Assembly: GCF_037975245.1 (NCBI RefSeq)
Contig: NC_092576.1
Span: 23,869,611-23,933,610 of the forward strand
Source: Apostichopus japonicus
Taxonomy: Eukaryota; Echinodermata; Holothuroidea; Aspidochirotida; Stichopodidae
Reading direction: 5' to 3'
Length of the DNA: 64,000 nucleotides
Under the pieces are notes generated by a model. It was given only the letters and a program-made list of their open reading frames with translations, was not told where the DNA came from and searched no databases. Positions 19,017-55,700 of the stretch are shown here, one piece after another (position 1 is the first letter of the stretch; each line of letters begins with the position of its first letter). A program made the translations under genes and the position numbers.

Positions 19017-19126
19017 AAGCATGACACTCTAATCGTTAAGGGAGAGGCATGCGTTCTGATAGCTCTGTGGAAAATACTCCAATGATGTTTCTCATGAAAT
19101 CCAGACTGGCCCTGCTAGGTCTAATC

Positions 19127-21310
19127 TATGGAACGCCAAAAGCGCAACGCATTTCGTTGCCTCGATCGATTTCGCCTCCTTCTATTTCGTTGCCTCCCTT
19201 TATTTCGTTGCCTCCTTTGATTTCGTTTCCTCCTTCTATTTCGTTGCTTCGTTCTATTTCGTTGTCTCATTCTATTTTGCTGCCTCGTTCTATTTCGTTG
19301 TCTCCTTCTACTTTGCTGCCTCGTTCTATTTCGTTGTTTCCTTTGATTTCATTGTCTCCTTCTATTTCGTTGCCTCGTTCTAATTCATTGTCTCCTTCGA
19401 TTTCGCTTCTTCGTTCTATTTCGTTGCCTCCTTTGGTTTTGTTGCCTCGTTTGATATCGTTGCCTCCTTTTATTTCGTCGCCTCCTTCTAATTCGTTGTC
19501 TCCTTTGATTTCGTTGCCTCCTTTGATTTCGTTGCCTCGTTCTATTATCTACTATCGGTAAAAAAATGATTTCTTGACCAAAAGTGGCCTTAAAGTTTTA
19601 ACCCCGATACGGACATCTCTAAACGCGCTATACGTTATGTGTAATGATCCAAAAGATGATTTTTTTTTCTCGCTGTATATACATAATGTGTAATAATCAG
19701 AAAAATGTAGGCTCCATAACTAAAGTTAATCGATTTTGAAAAGAAAAAAAAACAGTTTTCTGATCATTACACATTACGTATATACAGCGCGTTTAAAGAT
19801 GTCGGGGTTAGAACTTTGAGGCCACTTTTGGTAAAGAAATCATTTTTATTATCGATAGTAGAGATATACCACGTGAAAGATGAACCTGTCTACTTTAATG
19901 TGGTGCTAACCTGACATCTCAATAGGCTCCATAACTCAACTTAATCGATTTTGAAGAATAAAAAAATTAATCAATATTTTAAAACATTTAGGCCACTTTT
20001 GGTAAAAAAAAATCGGCTTTGTTACCGATAGTAGGTATAACACGTGAAAGAAGAAATTTTATTCTTTGATGTGATGCTAACCGAACCTCCTAACTAGGTC
20101 GATAACTCAAATTAATCGATTTTGAAATAATAATACGTTTGGATCATAACACATTACCGCGCGTTTCGAGCTAATTTTCCCATTTGCATCCCACTCCTGT
20201 TAGGATCGAACGGTTTGTAGCCATCGAATTTCAATAAATCAAAGTGATACTGACTGTTCTTTCATACCACGTGTAAGAGGAATAACTTATCATCGCCATT
20301 GTACCTCTCTTGACTGTTTTATATTCTCATAAATTAATTGTTTAGACATTTGAGAAAAAAAATGGTATAAAAATTGTCGCAATTTACGCCTTTCTCCACA
20401 AGATTTGGTAGGATCACAAGTTTCAGTTCAATATGGATGCAGAAATCGTCCACCATTTAATTCCAAAATTATAACACATGAAAGAGCAACATCTTCTCTC
20501 TCATATGGTGCAATTATTGGCATTTTACAGTATTCATAGCGTTAATTATTATCGCTTTAAAACAGGTACGAAAAAGTAACAGTCTTGTTATTGTCCGCTA
20601 ATTTAGGCTGCCCTTAGTGGCTGCTGGGGATCCACTTTTCCGCCACAGCGTACCCAGCGCTCGTCACAGTGTACAAACATCAGTGGCCAACGGCGTGTAA
20701 CGTTGATGTATACACTAGTGGCTGCTCTTAGTGGCTGCTACGTTCAAACAAGTGCTAGGCTGCTCAGTACGTGCTAGGCACTGTGATCGACCAGGTAACG
20801 TTCGCGTTAACCGGCCGGTCGCGACCGAAGGAGAAAAAAGCTCCGCCCACCAATGCATGCCTGCAATACCTAATTAACATAACCAGGCGAATTCAATCGA
20901 GGCAACGAAATCGAACGAGGCAACGATGTAGAACGAGGCAACGAAATAGGTGGAGGCAGCAAAATAGAAGAAGGCAACGAAATCGAAGGAGTCAACGAAA
21001 TAGAAGGAGGCAACGAAATAGAAGGAGGCAACGAAATAAAAGGAGGCAACAAAATAGAAGGAGGCAGCAAAATAGAAGGAGACAACGAAATAGAACGAAG
21101 CAACGAAATAGAAGGAGGCAACGAAACCGAAGGAGTCAACGAAATAGAAGGAGGCAACGAAATAGAAGGAGGCAGCAAAATAGAAAGAAGCAACGAAATA
21201 GAAGAAGGCAACGAAATAAAAGGAGGCAACGAAATAAAGGGAGGCAACGAAATAGAAGGAGGCGAAATCGATCGAGGCAACGAAATGCGTTGCGCTTTTG
21301 GCGTTCCATA
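19127..21310. mobile_element. Foldback-type transposon with minisatellite inverted ends
   Basis: The ends are inverted copies starting TATGGAACGCCAAAAGCG. I read about 90 bp as identical before the first mismatch. Each arm (19,127 to about 19,555 and about 20,880 to 21,310) continues as an imperfect 18-bp tandem repeat of the TCTATTTCGTTGCCTCCT type. The 6-bp sequence CTAATC flanks both sides (19,121-19,126 and 21,311-21,316), consistent with a target-site duplication. The interior of about 1.3 kb contains a second inverted repeat (about 19,548-19,640 against 19,790-19,870) and no transposase-like frame. Open frames through the arms (Arg/Gln/Asn or Ser/Leu/Pro hexapeptide repeats) follow from a repeat length divisible by three. 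Confidence 0.85.
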
Positions 21311-21519
21311 CTAATCAACATGATCAAAGCGAGGGTGGTTGGTGAGATGAGTGTTCCGACGCAACGCTGGAAACGATTCGCAAAGACACAGTGGATCGGG
21401 AAAAGAATCGTGATTTTGTTAGTAGTTGTGTTACTTGAATTTACAGTCCGTACCGTTACGGAGAGCCAAACGTTCCATAAATGTCGAAAAAGAAAGTGAA
21501 GTGTCCAAGTTAATGTATA

Positions 21520-25790: not shown

Positions 25791-40972
<15,182 letters not shown>

Positions 40973-41470: not shown

Positions 41471-42704
41471 AGAATAACCAAATTATAATTTGGTATTTTA
41501 AACTACGTGTGTAGTCTGCACAAATTTGAAATCAAAATTAAGATGGACCATCGAGTTACACAAGAACGAAACTGAGAAATATATTCTGGGAAAAGTGTTT
41601 TCCTACATTTTATCTGTTTGTGACTGAGAAAGCTAACAATTCAAATTGGATTAGAGCCATATCTAAGCAATAGTCAGACAGGCATATACTTACACGCACT
41701 AGGCTTATGAATCGCCGGGGACTCATAGACCAATTAGAATTACGTACTCATGTATATCAGTGTAATCCTCCCATTATACCCGAAATAACTGCTCAGACTC
41801 CGATCGATATCGAGCGCACCTCACTTTATTTACCTATTATGAAGTAACCTAACCCAAAATAAATCAAATTGAACTAGTGGAATAGAAAAAGTAATATTAT
41901 TCTGACTGAATATTAGTAAAAATAAGGTTGGGCGAAATGACCAACACGGTTGGGCGAAATGACCATGCTGGTTGGGCGAAATGACTATGATGGTTGGCAG
42001 TGGCGTAGCTACGGGGGGGGGGGGGGCCTGGGGGGCCGGGGCCCCCCATGAAAACGGCTGCCCCCCCACTGCCCCCCCCCACTGGGAATGGGGTAAAAAA
42101 AATTGTAAAAAAAAAAATGTAAAAAAAAAAAAAAAAAAACTCATCAGTGGGATTCACTAATATTTTTTGTTCAATAATTTGGGAAATAGAGTTACACAAT
42201 TTTCTCGTCTGCATCTGGCAGAATAAGAATAATACAATATCTGTAGTAATCATGAGAATGGTCATACAGCATGGCATGGCAATGGTCGATGCGACGGTTG
42301 TGACCATACACCACGAACCTTGTGCATGTGCTGCGCGATATCGATATCTACCAATACATGTTATCGGTCATCGATTGGCACAAAAACCCAGATTCTGATG
42401 ACAGCTGCCTCAAGAAACCCAATAAATGGCCTAATTAGCACCGAGCCACCAATGTGGACCATTACCGAAACATCGATGCGTGTTAGTCTTCCATCCCCTT
42501 CCTCTAATGCTATTTAAGTCCACATGTGGGCATTTCCTGCAAACCTATACCGGTAGCCCACAGGGGTTTGAGTTGGGAGAAAGGCCTTGACACCTTGAAA
42601 CAACAAATGATGCCAACCATAGGCGTACGAGGCGGGGGGTGCAGGGGAGGCAGACTGCCCCCTAAATTTCCAGAGGACAAGAAATTCGGGCAAAGGTCCT
42701 GAAA

Positions 42705-43699: not shown

Positions 43700-44879
43700 A
43701 CCTGGATATCCCCGACATGAGTGTATAAAAGAAACATTTTCTTTTTCATGGATGGTGGGGGGAGGGGGGAGTGTTTACAAGCCTAGAAGTACAGGTTTAT
43801 CATATTCTTTGTTATATTTTATACTTTTTTGTGAGACAAATTGCAGTCTCACCCGACACAGCGACATTATCCCGCCTACGTGTCGTTGAACAATGTTTTT
43901 CTGGAGGTAGCTGAGTACTGTGTTAAAATAATAAATAAGGTAACTAAATATAGCAGCTTAAAAAATATACTGTCCCATTTTTCCCCTTCAAAGTGATGTT
44001 ACCATTTTTTCTTCTTCTAATTTACCAAATTTTTGGGGAACTGTAAATTTCTAAAACGTGAGATTATAAAATAAAGAATGTTTAGATGCAACTTGCAAGG
44101 CCTCAGAAGTGCCGTTTCCGGCAATCTGAGAGGCATTGCGTGCCAAAAATTTTCTTGTTCGCTACGCGCCAACCGATGGTGGCGCTCCGCTTAGATAGTG
44201 TCACGGGAACTTTCGGGCACAAAAAGTTCTGCCCCCCCCAAACTGAAATGGTCCCGTACGCCTTTGATGTCAACTTCACTCAAGTTAAAAGTCTGGCTGA
44301 GTTGACAAGGCCAGTCAGCATGAAAGAGAAATTTTTTTTTTGCATTTCTGTCACCAAAGTTGCACATCTTTTTGGTTGCTATTTTGCCTCACAGGTGCCA
44401 TCTCCTGCGATCTGGGGGGTGCTGAAATCTCAAATTTTCTCTGTACGCTCCGCGCCAACCAAGGTGGTGCTCCGCTCAGATAGTAACCTCCGGCCCCCCC
44501 CCACAAGAAAGAACAGCCCCCCCATGGCCCCCCCACTCAAAAAATCCTAGCTACGCCACTGATGGTTGGGCGAAATGACCATGCTGGTTGGGCGAAATGA
44601 CCATGCTGGTTGGGCGAAATGACCAGCCTGGTTGGGCGAAATGACCAGCCTGGTTGGGCGAAATGGTTGTTGGGCGAAGTGACTAGAAAGCTGTCAGTTG
44701 ATACCAAAATTTACCGACAGTGAGTTTGGTTTATTTCCTTCTTAGCACGGTTGGCGCCACTAAATTGCCCCCAAAAAAGTGCCTCTTTACCAAGAAACTC
44801 ATGTACGTGGAAGAGTCTGTTAAAGTTTCGCTCGTGTGGAAATGTCTCATCAAAGCACTGAAACTTACTGGCATTTCAC

Positions 44880-49771: not shown

Positions 49772-52700
49772 GTAGGCTGTGCTAAGTTACAATGCCCCAG
49801 TTACTGTAGTGTATGCATAACGTCACATTCACAGCAGGCAGTATCATGCGGTTCTAGGCTAGGCGTAAGACTAACCGGTAATACACGAGCCTACCCTATC
49901 AATTATCATAGACCTGCATGCATAACTTTTTTTTCTGCAGATGAATTTTTCACCAGTAACTTTGGACTCCGCTGTAGGGTAGCCTAGGTCTAACTTAGGT
50001 AAACTGTATTTACACAATTACTTATGAACGTGTGGCAAGCATGTTATATAACTTGTTATAAAGCAAAGTAGATTGATCAATTCAAGACCCTGGTACTACT
50101 ACTACTACAGTAGTAGTAGTAGTAGAACTAGTACGTACAGTAGTGGTAATAGTAAAGGCTTCATAATTGATGCACCTTTGTAATTGACGCACCTTTAAAT
50201 ATTACTAGCAACGAAACAGCAGGCAACTTTAACTTCTTGCAGTCAAGCAGAGTTACATAATTGATATGTTTTAATCCATTTCATTTTCAGGTAAATGCTG
50301 ATCAAATTGTGTTTTTTTTATAAGCTTTTAACACCCTCCCCCCAGTTTTGCAGAATTTCTTTTGGCATTTGGAAATCTTACTCTCTAAAAATAACCAAAA
50401 TTACCTCAATATAATACCACTACTCTCTGGAACCTGACCTGTCTTGCCTTAGAGGCTCAGAGCATAGCAAACAGCATCCAAAGTCAATGGATGTATACTA
50501 AGGCCTACACTGCAGTTAGCTTATCGACGAATGTGTCAATTTAAGGTTATGAAAGAACTTGACGTTTTGAGGTCTAGCTCTGCTCAATTGTAAGTTGCAT
50601 ATAGGCACAGAACCGTAACTATTTTGAGATCATTACATTTCTGAGGCACTACACATATGAAAAAGGAATACATTTGAGGGTGATTTCGTTTTTTCGTAAT
50701 CAAATTAATCAATCAAATTCTAAAGTGTGCCAATTATGAGCCCACCATGCTGCTAGACCTAGTATTACAAAAATCATTGTGAAATGACGTTACTGCACCC
50801 TACCATTCTACATGGAAAAATTATCAGTCTTTGAATGCTGTGTCAAGATATACTGTAGCCTATAGTCTAACGCAAAACAGTCATGGTTTGATTCAAATAT
50901 TTTTTTTTTTTTTTTTTTTAGTTTTTTCAAAAACTCACAATGCTGTGCAGTGACTGTGTAGGGTCCTAGCTTGTTTATCCTATCTAAGGCTAGTCTATTT
51001 TACTTGCTGGCATACAGTAGACTATTCTGGTCACTGTTAGTGCTAGTTTACTGAGGATAGCCATCTATGGCATTGTTGGTATTCTATCTATTGTTTACAC
51101 TGTAGCTTGAGTTATGTTTGGAAGCTTTTATGGCCAGGTCAATTGGAGAGTACCCAGGTGCACATACACTGGTGTGATCCCATGTTATACAGGTGTAGAT
51201 GTTTGTGAGAGGTGGAATGACCTAGTGGGAGTGGTCAGTGGTCTTCCACCTACCAATAGGGTTGTGTGTTGTACTAGGGTGTTGGTTTATGTTAGTGTTA
51301 ATTTGTTATGTATGTTGGAGATGATGTTACAAGAGAATAATATAGAGCAGAGCTCCTCCAGCCTCCAAGCTGTCAACTTGTCTTGTGTCATTCTTTGTTG
51401 ATTGCATATGTTTTAGTTTGTTCTGTTACTGCTCCGTCACTACAACTACACTGAGCACTCTGAGAAATATCAAACATATCGTTTCTCTTTGCATGGTATG
51501 TGCATTTGTTTAGATGAACCTTAGCTGTACACATACTGTACATGTACACATGTCATTGTTAAGGGGCTGCTTTATTGGTTCCAATTGTACTGTAGCAAGC
51601 TATAACTAGGAAAGATTTGTGATTATGTAATCGACCGGCCATGGTCGTCAATTGACCTCGCGCTCAACAATATGCCTGCATAGCTTCTTAACACCATTAG
51701 GCTCTTTGTGTTAATAACACTGTGTGGGAATATTTTCATGTTTATGTGTGTAGTTTATCATACCCTCAAACGAGAAAAAATATGTGGCAAGCATTGCAGA
51801 CTAATTGGTAAACAGAGGTCATGTTACGACCAAGGCAAGTCGATTAAATGTAATCTCAAGAAACTTTTCCATAATAGCGTGCTATAGTTGTGGTCTATAC
51901 AGCAGACCTTTAAACTGTATATGCTGCTATATACTGTATGCCAGAAGCAGAAATGGAAGATGTTGCAGACATTTACAGTACTTAGTTACTTTTTGAACAT
52001 AAAAAGAGATAACTAATAGGAAAAACAGGTGAAAACTTAAGATCTGCATGGTTTTAAAATGAGATAAGCCTATTTAAGAAATAACTCGATTTAAGGTCTA
52101 CTGTACATAATAATGTTTTGAAAGAATATTGTTGATCAATTGATACATAAAATATGTTACTATTACAATGTTGTTAATGGTAGAGTCAGTAAAATGATAT
52201 GGGTTGTATGGCCAAAAATTGCTGACCCCCAATGTCAGTGAAGAGTTAAAGGTCAATAGTGACCAACTGTACTGTATATATGCAATACCATTTTACCACA
52301 GTGACGGGTAATACCATATATATGTGCTAAAGATATTTTCATCAAGTGCGACTACTGTATTGTATTCACAAGATTCAGCAATGAAAGAGTTTGATGCATT
52401 CATCAGCCTTTACAACTGTTTGGTGACATATTTATGTGTGTGTATAAACAGTCGCTATTAACATGTTACTGGGCAGGTCCAAGCTATTGTATCCCTAGAA
52501 GCCAAATTTCAAACTTTACTGAAGCACCCTAAATGTGGTGTCATGTTAAAGCTGAATTATTGAAGTTTCAGATTTTTATAATTTTTTTAATTGTTTTGCC
52601 TATTCGAACAATTACAGCCGGCTAATTTGCATAAATTCAAATTGCAGTGTGACGTACGGGACATTTGGAATCCTATTTCCCTGCCAGCAATATGAACTTA

Positions 52701-55700
52701 TTGAATATTAGTTATGTGGGACATGATACACCCTTCCTTCCAATAATTTTGACATATTATGTTTGGGGGTTCATTAATTAAATATGCTAATTAGCTAGTG
52801 TCCAAATACTGATGTCCCGTACGTCACAATTTTCAGCACTTTTTTTCAAGTTTTGATATGGAGGAACAATTTTTTTTGGGTGATATTCTGTAAAGTTCTA
52901 ATTAAGAACATTGTTCAACAAAATCCATCCCAAAAAAATTGAAATAATATTCACAGCAAATCTAATTATCAAAATTAAAAATGTGACGTACGGGACAAAA
53001 TGTGACGTACGGGACATAGTGTTGGGGAAACCCTGTACTTATACATAATAAACATGCATGGGCTCCAATGGGGACCTCTATTGGTATGGAAACCTTCCAA
53101 TGCTTACAAATTTATTTTGTTGAAAGCTGGTAGTTGCAACTAATAATCCCTGCATGCCTGAAGAGCACATCATGGCTTCAAATAAACTATTGACCGATGA
53201 CCACCAACAGCCCAAGTGTTGTTCAATAAACTATCGGGAAGACAATTGTGTGTGTGTGTGGGATACAGAATCATCTACAATGCTATTCAACATTGACATT
53301 GAATGAGGACGACTTCAAGAATGTTGAGTTTGCATTTCAACTTTTCTTAGGCCTATTGTGAACTTAGTGTGACTATCATGACTGCGCAACAATGTTCTTG
53401 TGTCCTGAACTTAGTTAGTAGACATTGAGATTTTTAGTTACAAGTGTAGAGTTTCGCTAGCCCAATTTTTGCAGAGGACAATCACTCATGAGTTTGTTCA
53501 ATATTCAGTATTAAGTCTATAGAGTTTTCTTTGTTGTACTAGTGTCATAGATGGACATTACGTTGATGTTACTGTGGAGATTTTGATATGTTTTGAATGG
53601 GATGGATCATATTTCAACTTCAGGGTCAATAGTGGGGAGTATGATACAGTGTTGTACAGTATATACCAAAACAGTTTTGCACCAAAACTTTGCATCTTGA
53701 ATCATTTGTGGTCTAACAAAGCTAGAATTGATGTTATGAGTATTTGGTCTGGTAACCAGTATTAGGTCTATAGAGTTTTCATAGATGGACATTATGTGGA
53801 CGTTACTGTGGACATTTTGGTATGTTTTGAATGGGATGGATCATATTTCAACTTCAGGGTCAATAGTGGGGAGTATGATACAGTGTTGTACAGTATATAC
53901 CGAAACAGTTTTGCATCAAAACTTTGCATCTTGGATCATTTGTGGTCTAACGAGGCTAGAATTGATGTATTGAGTATTTGGTCTGGTAACCAGTATTAGG
54001 TCTATAGAGTTTTCTTTCTTGTACTAGTTTCATAGATGGACATTATGTGGACGTTACTGTGGACATTTTGGTATGTTTTGAATGGGATGGATCATATTTC
54101 AACTTCAGGGTCAATAGTGGGGAGTATGATACAGTGTTGTACGTTATGTACCAAAACAGTTTTGCACCAAAAACTTTGCATCTTGGATCATTTGTGGTCT
54201 AACAAAGCTAAAATTGATGTTATGAGTATTTGATGAATGTGTAGAGTAGATTTATACTTTACGCATTCCATGTTTTATGTAGTGGAATGATCTCACAAGT
54301 ACAGTCACTGCTCTTTTCGATCCCAGAAAGAAGGAAATATGGCATGAAATTACCAATGACATTGTTCTGGCATATCCAAATTAATGTTTTTATGTAGAAA
54401 TCAGCTTGTTATGGTATATTCAGGAATAAAAATATGAGTTTTCATAGTCAATTTTTATTTGGACAAATTGTCCCGTACGTCACTTGTCCCATACGTCACA
54501 GGACAATTTTCATTTGTGTAATCACTGAACTGGAATGGCTTCATATTTTTTTCTAATATGTTACAACTTAGCCCTTGGAAGGTTAGGCTATTCACTAGTT
54601 ATAACAGCTTGATCACTGCCCTCCTACTTTCAGAGGGATTTCAGCTTTGCTCTTTAGTAAAAAAAACACAAAATTCTCTGGTCCCGTACGTCACACTGTA
54701 CATTAATTAAGATGGGACCTAATTAAAGCAAGTGTAGGAAATCTTCATGAGTTTGTAATACAGTAGCAGCAATAACAAATATTAAAACCTAAAAAAGTTT
54801 CTGGAAAATAGATTTTTTATAACTTTTAGAAACATTTAAGTCTCTGAAATGTCCCGTACGTCACAGTGCAAATAGCTTGGACCTGCCCTACTATGTACAT
54901 TACTCAGCCTTCAAGATCTGGAAATGACTTGTACAGTCTCTTTTGGTTGATGTTATTCTCACAGATCCCAACCAGTTTGGACGTCGGTTGATGGAGAGGA
55001 TGGGATGGAGCGATGGTAAAGGATTGGGATCAAAAGAAGATGGAGAGAAAGACTTTGTGCGGGTATCGGTGAAGGGAAACACCAAAGGTAATTGGTTAGA
55101 ATCAATATAATATAATATCTATGAGTGTTTGCACGGGGTATCCGGGTACCTGGTTAGCCACCTGACACTTATACTACCCGGCTTTATATATTACCCGAAT
55201 CCTACGCAAAGTGTGATATTTTTGTTTTTGGCAAACCGATGGGTAGGCAAGATTTCTCATTGACTACTGTACAGTAAGTGTGATATTAGGCTACCATGTG
55301 GTCAAAGATAACAGCAATAATGAAAGTATTCCATGGATATCTTATAACTGCGTCACAATTTCAGCGAATAAACAGATGGTGGTTAGGCTAGATTTCCCCA
55401 TTGACTTAGTGAAGTTAGTGTGGTGTTAGGCTACCATGTGGAAGAAATTGAAAGAATTCTCACAATTATGATTTTTTTCATTTGTTTACTTCATAGAAGG
55501 AAAGACTGACAAGGAAATTTACGAGATGTTACTAATGGATTATAGACGGGATAACTAGTGGCTTTATAGTAAATGTTTAAATTTCAAATGCGATCAAATT
55601 TCAGGAATCGTGCAATCCCATGGCTAATGCGAACCCTGGGCCTGCATAATAAATAGTAGTAGTAAAAACTGTCTAAGAGCTAAATTGGATATTAATATGG

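Follow-up and report, generated by a model that had tools for sequence, protein, structure and literature searches.

Position and sequence of subterminal sites in a putative non-autonomous DNA transposon of Apostichopus japonicus and in its sister families

What do short motifs repeated near both ends of a mobile element serve for, and what keeps them in place? This question is raised by an element in a 64,000-nucleotide stretch of the Apostichopus japonicus genome (RefSeq assembly GCF_037975245.1, contig NC_092576.1, positions 23,869,611 to 23,933,610; hereafter the window), which has a sequence for a G-patch domain, as in PINX1, downstream of it and carries eight copies of a 14-bp motif between its inverted ends. 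Comparison with its four sister families suggests that, in transposons of this kind, the docking sites close to the ends retain their spacing while differing in sequence between families. Judging from sequence data, we consider it likely that two statements hold jointly: the window element arose by deletion from a cut-and-paste DNA transposon with a transposase of DDD-type signature and is itself non-autonomous, and its motifs are docking sites of that transposase, their geometry being under selection and their word following the transposase.

The window element and its family

The first-pass annotation of the window had described perfect 18-bp inverted ends, a flanking TACT duplication and eight 14-bp motifs, four per end, with seven exact copies and one carrying a single mismatch, and all of this was verified. 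GGGCAGGTCCAAGCTATT is found at 52471-52488 and its exact inverse at 54871-54888, and the motifs start at 52649, 52814, 52983, 53002, 54470, 54486, 54681 and 54851, the mismatch at 54486 being a change from CG to CA. The motif clearly exceeds chance, as 14 window matches with up to three mismatches stand against 1.70 expected (standard deviation 1.31; maximum 5 in 100 shuffles), eight of them being located in the element, three in a fragment in a PLK1-like intron and three elsewhere. The conserved core is best given as the 16-mer TGTGACGTACGGGACA, which is exact at five of the eight window sites and has one mismatch at three proximal sites. It is imperfectly palindromic (six of eight symmetric pairs; the chance of at least six in a random 16-mer is 0.0042), and the sites are oriented + - + + at the left (distal) end and - - - - at the right (proximal) end.

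Searching the 671.6-Mb assembly (35 contigs) for the exact 16-mer gave 636 occurrences (307 + 329) and none for the reversed control. Places were listed for the matches on contigs 1-4 only, and the 18 recognisable copies there were fetched. Both ends, with at most two mismatches, are present in 16 of them, L127 having no right end and L132 no left end. According to the printed flanks 13 of these 16 have perfect 4-bp duplications, L143 and L144 match in three of four bases and L140 has none in register, so that with the window element included the duplication is present in 14 of 17 two-ended copies. Its sequence varies (TACT, TTAT, TAGA, TAGT, ATAA, TGTA, ACCA and others). The element is thus, as had been proposed, a member of a family, being multi-copy with ends and motif common to the fetched copies; we refer to this family as A and to its sister families as B, C, D and E. 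The 17 left and 17 right ends deviate by only about 1-5% from the majority sequence (window 1.9%; the values of L144 are void owing to its reversed orientation there, and its row slightly disturbs the majority sequence); family A is therefore young. The internal tandem repeat of the window element might suggest that the 18-bp ends pair by chance and that the array is a satellite or segmental repeat. This idea is already contradicted by the different, perfect 4-bp duplications that flank the same ends at different places in 13 of 16 two-ended copies and by 636 motif matches versus none for the reversed control, rendering it extremely improbable.

We also considered whether an insertion private to the window copy interrupts its left inverted repeat and rejected this, the spacer being common to the fetched copies that have a left end. 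One copy, L142, contains a foreign insert at about 1030-1600 with a 154-residue frame that resembles, by eye, the end of a long interspersed element (LINE) reverse transcriptase; Pfam returned 0 families for it.

Transposase and sister families

The window copy has no working gene. The family copy L144 equals the window element except for about 1.09 kb that replace window-element bases 600-817, and this extra stretch contains a broken open frame with DFSENYS, YWSDGAGSQFKN and KGAVDGIGGTVKR, corresponding to a DF.EN / SDG / KG..DG signature. As a copy of the family carries a transposase, if a broken one, the window element is likely to be a deletion derivative. A genome search with 104 L144 residues, in which the best candidates were scored, resulted in 46 matches. 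Besides L144, which matched itself at 100%, these comprised two neighbouring pieces on contig 3 (66% and 49%) and 43 further matches of 31-41%, several of them within open frames of 674-881 residues. In an alignment of nine transposases, in which family C is represented by L172, a locus that carries a C-like protein but has no array itself, the columns that are invariant or deviate in a single row read DF.EN(Y), Q.E.QS, SD..H, SDG..Q(FY)K, HGKG..DG and a K. Over the aligned positions the family A transposase has an identity of 35-39% with the rows for families B, C and D, and the three conserved D residues (DF.EN, SDG, HGKG..DG) presumably form the catalytic triad. Reading of the strands showed that the transposase points from distal to proximal in all five families. 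Pfam, NCBIfam and solved structures yielded chance-level matches only (best E-values 0.011, 0.028 and 0.028, falling far short of the families' cut-offs where such exist).

We examined 28 of the 46 transposase matches, located in 27 loci, and identified an array in 16 of these loci (degenerate in L144 and L180). Families B to E share with A the type of transposase, GGGC ends, 4-bp duplications and site clusters at each end, and each has a motif of its own: GCGAGGGACGGAATT in B (four loci: L151, L155, L156, L157), TGTAACGTGAGTAACC in C (eight loci: L158, L159, L161, L162, L164, L174, L175, L182, with one end of L161 in view), TGTGACGGACGTACA in D (one good element at C10:16061461-16066077 with a 737-residue open frame, plus the degenerate copy L180) and TGGTTACAGTGTGACA in E (one element, L173).

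The ends of these elements were sought by scanning the DNA around the arrays for a 4-bp duplication beside inverted ends. This resulted in GGGCAATTCCA ends for six of six family C copies and the family E element, L164 and L175 having a one-base-shifted alternative. All four family B copies have GGGCCAAAGCC ends with 4-bp duplications, for which L155 and L157 also allow readings displaced by one or two bases. All seven C copies with both ends in view have a 4-bp duplication, and that of E is AAAG. For D the scan around the arrays gave nothing; by eye, its ends are GGGCAATTCC and GGGCAGTTCC with ATTT on both sides. When whole loci were scanned, a GGGCAATTCCA-type end was the sole match in L182 and in L173, L180 gave a pair inside motifs, L172 AT runs only and L181 nothing. 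The inverted ends comprise 18 bp in A, 13-15 bp in B, 11 bp in C and E, and only 9 of 10 bp in D.

At least one other branch of the transposase was also encountered. L154, L165, L169, L170 and L171 have frames of 776-866 residues (two in L154) with no eight-site array seen nearby, HGKGxxDGE is present in L165, L169, L170 and L171, and these five loci are either active elements or host genes. L165 and L166 (contigs 5 and 15) hold two copies of an 866-residue frame of the same lineage within about 7 kb of 99.5% identical DNA, the shared stretch extending to the limits of the fetched DNA.

Spacing and sequence of the sites

Measured from the element end, the proximal sites of family A are located at 24, 194, 389 and 405 bp. 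Those of B lie at 27, 194, 391 and 405 (L155, L156), at 27, 192, 387 and 401 (L151) or at 27, 151, 348 and 362 (L157), those of C at 13, 191, 379 and 394 in six of six copies, those of D at 182, 371, 392 and 428 with a degenerate site (11/15) at 13, and those of E at 12, 192, 389 and 403. At the distal end the sites are found at 178, 343, 512 and 531 in A and at 181, 346, 516 and 535 in L156 of family B, with L157 within 1 bp, L155 having 9-10 bp less at three sites and L151 22-26 bp more. The distal offsets are 360, 525, 542 and 562 in L162 of family C, with the other five copies within 3 bp, 363, 518, 539, 552 and 567 in D, and 373, 539, 557 and 579 in E, the inner distal cluster having more sites in C, D and E. 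Consequently, all eight sites of the window element are within 4 bp of those of L156 and have the same orientations, and the agreement is within 12 bp for the proximal sites of A, C and E and within 17 bp for the distal sites of C and E.

The fragment in the PLK1-like intron of the window, the identity of this host gene being judged by eye, had been suggested to be a decayed relative of the element. This was confirmed by blastn, which aligned 33526-33735 at 72% and 33290-33334 at 89% identity; over the ungapped positions of a looser alignment the fragment is 79% identical. Its motifs at 33322, 33528 and 33704 are 24, 200 and 406 bp away from the extrapolated end (calculated by hand), indicating that the array geometry is present in an older copy, too.

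Before the second end of family B was fetched, the ranges 12-24, 182-194, 371-389 and 391-405 had been written down; by then the inner pair was known, but neither its distance to the end nor the two outer sites. L155 and L156 each have two sites within these ranges and two that miss them by 2-3 bp, and L151 has three of its four sites within the ranges. L157 has none, its first site being at 27 and the other three 23-31 bp too close to the end, a pattern that a deletion of about 43 bp would leave. The second end of B was thus close to the predicted ranges in three of four copies.

We then compared the motif-masked spacer DNA between families. All scores from 16 comparisons were within the range of 200 shuffles, the strongest being D-E distal (reached by 1 of 200 shuffles) and A-D proximal (8 of 200), and the proximal A-B score was reached by 220 of 300 shuffles. 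None of 400,000 random placements of four sites in 600 bp matched the A-B distal arrangement as closely; for four other family pairs P was 3.75e-5 to 2.2e-4, and with the inner tandem pair fixed it was 1.75e-5 to 1.75e-4 in four pairs, all pairs having been picked with the offsets known and D left out.

These values bear on the possibility that the arrays are ancestral positions that are slow to decay, with no selection on spacing. The five families do share one transposase lineage, and copies within families show indels of 9-43 bp, as would be expected in that case. However, the spacers have diverged to shuffle-level alignment scores, yet A and L156 of family B are at most 4 bp apart at all eight sites, and neutral decay that deep should bring many indels. 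Moreover, the site core hardly varies within a family, whereas the adjoining bases differ. We therefore regard mere persistence of ancestral positions as unlikely.

Between families the motifs themselves have limited likeness. The best ungapped alignments gave 10 matches for A-C and A-D (P 0.009 and 0.007) and 9 for A-B, B-D and C-D (P 0.05, 0.03 and 0.03), these P values being uncorrected for ten comparisons, and the pairs A-E, B-C, B-E, C-E and D-E were not clearly better than shuffles. A core GTNAC is readable in the A, C, D and E motifs, which was noticed post hoc and is not a test.

The family-specific motifs weigh against another explanation, which extends a suggestion of the first-pass annotation: the sites might dock not the transposase but a host protein of the bZIP/CREB type that drives transcription or silencing, as the window motif includes a half-site of the cAMP response element. 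The window motif indeed contains TGACG, and one of the arrays, lying on the promoter side of the transposase, could have a role in transcription. TGACG, however, is confined to the A and D motifs and absent from those of B, C and E, which have the same kind of array, and the sites of the window element are equally numerous at its 3' and 5' ends. Since all families face the same host proteins and yet each has its own motif, a single host protein cannot account for family-specific words, so that we consider a host factor of this type to be quite improbable.

Docking of the transposase would account for these observations in the following way. A lost or unseen copy would supply the transposase in trans, and this protein would bind the sites of each end, pair the two ends and cut at GGGC. 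The distances between sites and end would be set by the shape of the end complex, and spacing would for this reason be kept by selection, whereas the site sequence would change in step with the part of the transposase that binds DNA. The most economical account of kept positions combined with jointly changing site sequence appears to be selection on the form of this complex. The earlier proposal that the subterminal array consists of transposase binding sites thus probably holds, the weight for it coming from the comparison of sister families. The steps of about 155-197 bp are near one nucleosome repeat, from which one may guess that the complex is built on DNA that is looped or wrapped in nucleosomes. 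Tentatively, we also consider that the conserved end signal might be a ruler, not a word, with two unlike ends, sites at steps of about one nucleosome repeat, and a recognition word of which all copies are replaced in concert in each new family. If so, chromatin-sized loops would be the scaffold on which the transposase assembles, and a change of the word alone could make families invisible to each other, with no cross-mobilisation.

Several findings weigh against docking sites whose spacing is under selection. No such array was seen in 11 of the 27 transposase loci (L152, L153, L154, L163, L165, L166, L169, L170, L171, L172, L181), several of which were viewed with 1.5 kb per side only and some of which hold other repeats. 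No intact family A transposase was among the best candidates, which for this family included only L144 and one decayed fragment (66%/49%). The distal site near 180 is present in A and B and missing in C, D and E, and site orientation is not conserved in C, D and E. Spacing is not rigid, as the B copies L151, L155 and L157 are 9-43 bp off L156 and the A copies L136, L137 and L139 have shifted sites as well. The motif pairs A-E, B-C, B-E and C-E resemble each other no better than shuffled motifs do, which we also count on this side, together with the choice of pairs for random placement and the scope of one genome and five families, D and E being represented by one good element each. Five families of one lineage in one genome would constitute a natural experiment on how the specificity of a transposase changes without breaking the end complex, and they yield five sets of motif and transposase for binding tests.

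Window features and known transposon systems

The features of the element and of its older relative are compiled in Table 1. The 20-codon stretch listed there recurs downstream of the transposase remnant of L144, in another frame.

Table 1. Positions of the element, its sites and its relative in the window
Feature	Position	Strand	Remark
Older 5'-truncated related fragment, proximal end only, PLK1-like intron	33290..33741	+	last 6 bases extrapolated
TACT target-site duplication, left copy	52467..52470	none	flank reading
18-bp terminal inverted repeat, distal (5') end	52471..52488	+	common to fetched copies
Distal site 1, TGTGACGTACGGGACA	52648..52663	+	offset 178 from end
Distal site 2, inverted	52813..52828	-	offset 343
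Distal site 3	52982..52997	+	offset 512
Distal site 4	53001..53016	+	offset 531
Possible last scrap of transposase gene, 20 codons	53299..53358	+	90% identity to query from copies
Internal tandem repeat, 2.9 units of 234 bp	53545..54232	+	unit about 251 bp in several copies
Proximal site 4	54469..54484	-	offset 405
Proximal site 3, one CG to CA change	54485..54500	-	offset 389
Proximal site 2	54680..54695	-	offset 194
Proximal site 1	54850..54865	-	offset 24
18-bp terminal inverted repeat, proximal (3') end	54871..54888	-	inverse of distal end
TACT target-site duplication, right copy	54889..54892	none	flank reading

The internal tandem unit of 234/251 bp is present in 1-6 units in different insertions of this one young family. 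A coding origin of the repeat was rejected; it is open in frame in places, but its period is near 251 bp in several copies. For its frames Pfam returned 0 families, and the best E-values in the search of solved structures were 0.15 and 1.

Two further repeats are found in the window. The sequence at 19127-21310 has 413-bp inverted arms (85%) that consist mostly of an 18-bp tandem unit, with TATGGAACGCC as outer end, and is flanked by CTAATC at 19121-19126 and 21311-21316 (6 bp, by eye); it looks like a foldback DNA transposon with satellite-like ends. A 22-bp minisatellite (GGTTGGGCGAAATGACC...) is located at 41926-41997 and 44563-44665 and also, by translation, inside the insert of L127.

In the collection of papers that was searched by text, none contained the letters of the window motif, and among the matches listed for six end or motif strings all were unrelated, which does not show absence from print. 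Scans of viral contigs returned 0, 2 and 51 stretches, none a relative, and phage records gave no lead. In a genome-contig collection the matches listed for the 14-mer were scattered bacterial and archaeal ones of the chance kind.

Subterminal repeats are known in several transposon groups, and the TnpA motif of En/Spm is such a repeat, bound by the element's own protein. CACTA and hAT elements have other termini and duplication lengths, namely CACTA-type termini in the former and an 8-bp duplication in the latter. Both were rejected here, CACTA/EnSpm on account of the GGGC ends of families A to E and hAT on account of flanks that match over 4 bp only, for example in the window. What the families described here have in common with CACTA/EnSpm and hAT (Ac/Ds, Hermes, Kat1) would be subterminal repeats bound by the element's own protein, as the abstracts on Kat1 and Hermes state for these two elements. 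Ginger, for which an excerpt of a published description gives duplications of 4-6 bp (PMC10741241), was rejected as the termini are GGGC and not TG...CA and as the sister transposases have no integrase match in Pfam. piggyBac was rejected as well, its duplication being TTAA-specific while the targets here vary.

Kolobok elements have 4-bp and KolobokP elements 3-5-bp duplications, and both have RR...YY ends, according to the part of the description consulted (PMC9587614), so that duplication length and RR...YY ends are points of likeness. Kolobok, however, is TTAA-specific whereas the targets here vary, C/DxxH was not seen by eye between the second and third conserved D in the nine-protein block, and the window element has no long terminal direct repeats; Kolobok was therefore rejected.

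The superfamily is probably Sola-like, given a putative DDD-type transposase and 4-bp duplications, the elements being set beside Sola by published descriptions only. As excerpts of these put it, Sola1, Sola2 and Sola3 have a DDD transposase, 4-bp duplications (AT-rich in Sola2), a length of mostly 2-9 kb and inverted ends of at least 11 bp (PMC10741241, PMC3627910). Likewise, 4-bp duplications are found in families A to E and inverted ends of at least 11 bp in A, B, C and E. In contrast, the subterminal array is unmentioned in these excerpts on Sola and present in the families described here, and what appears unusual about it, compared with the subterminal repeats of other groups, is that the sites have held their positions while their sequences changed jointly.

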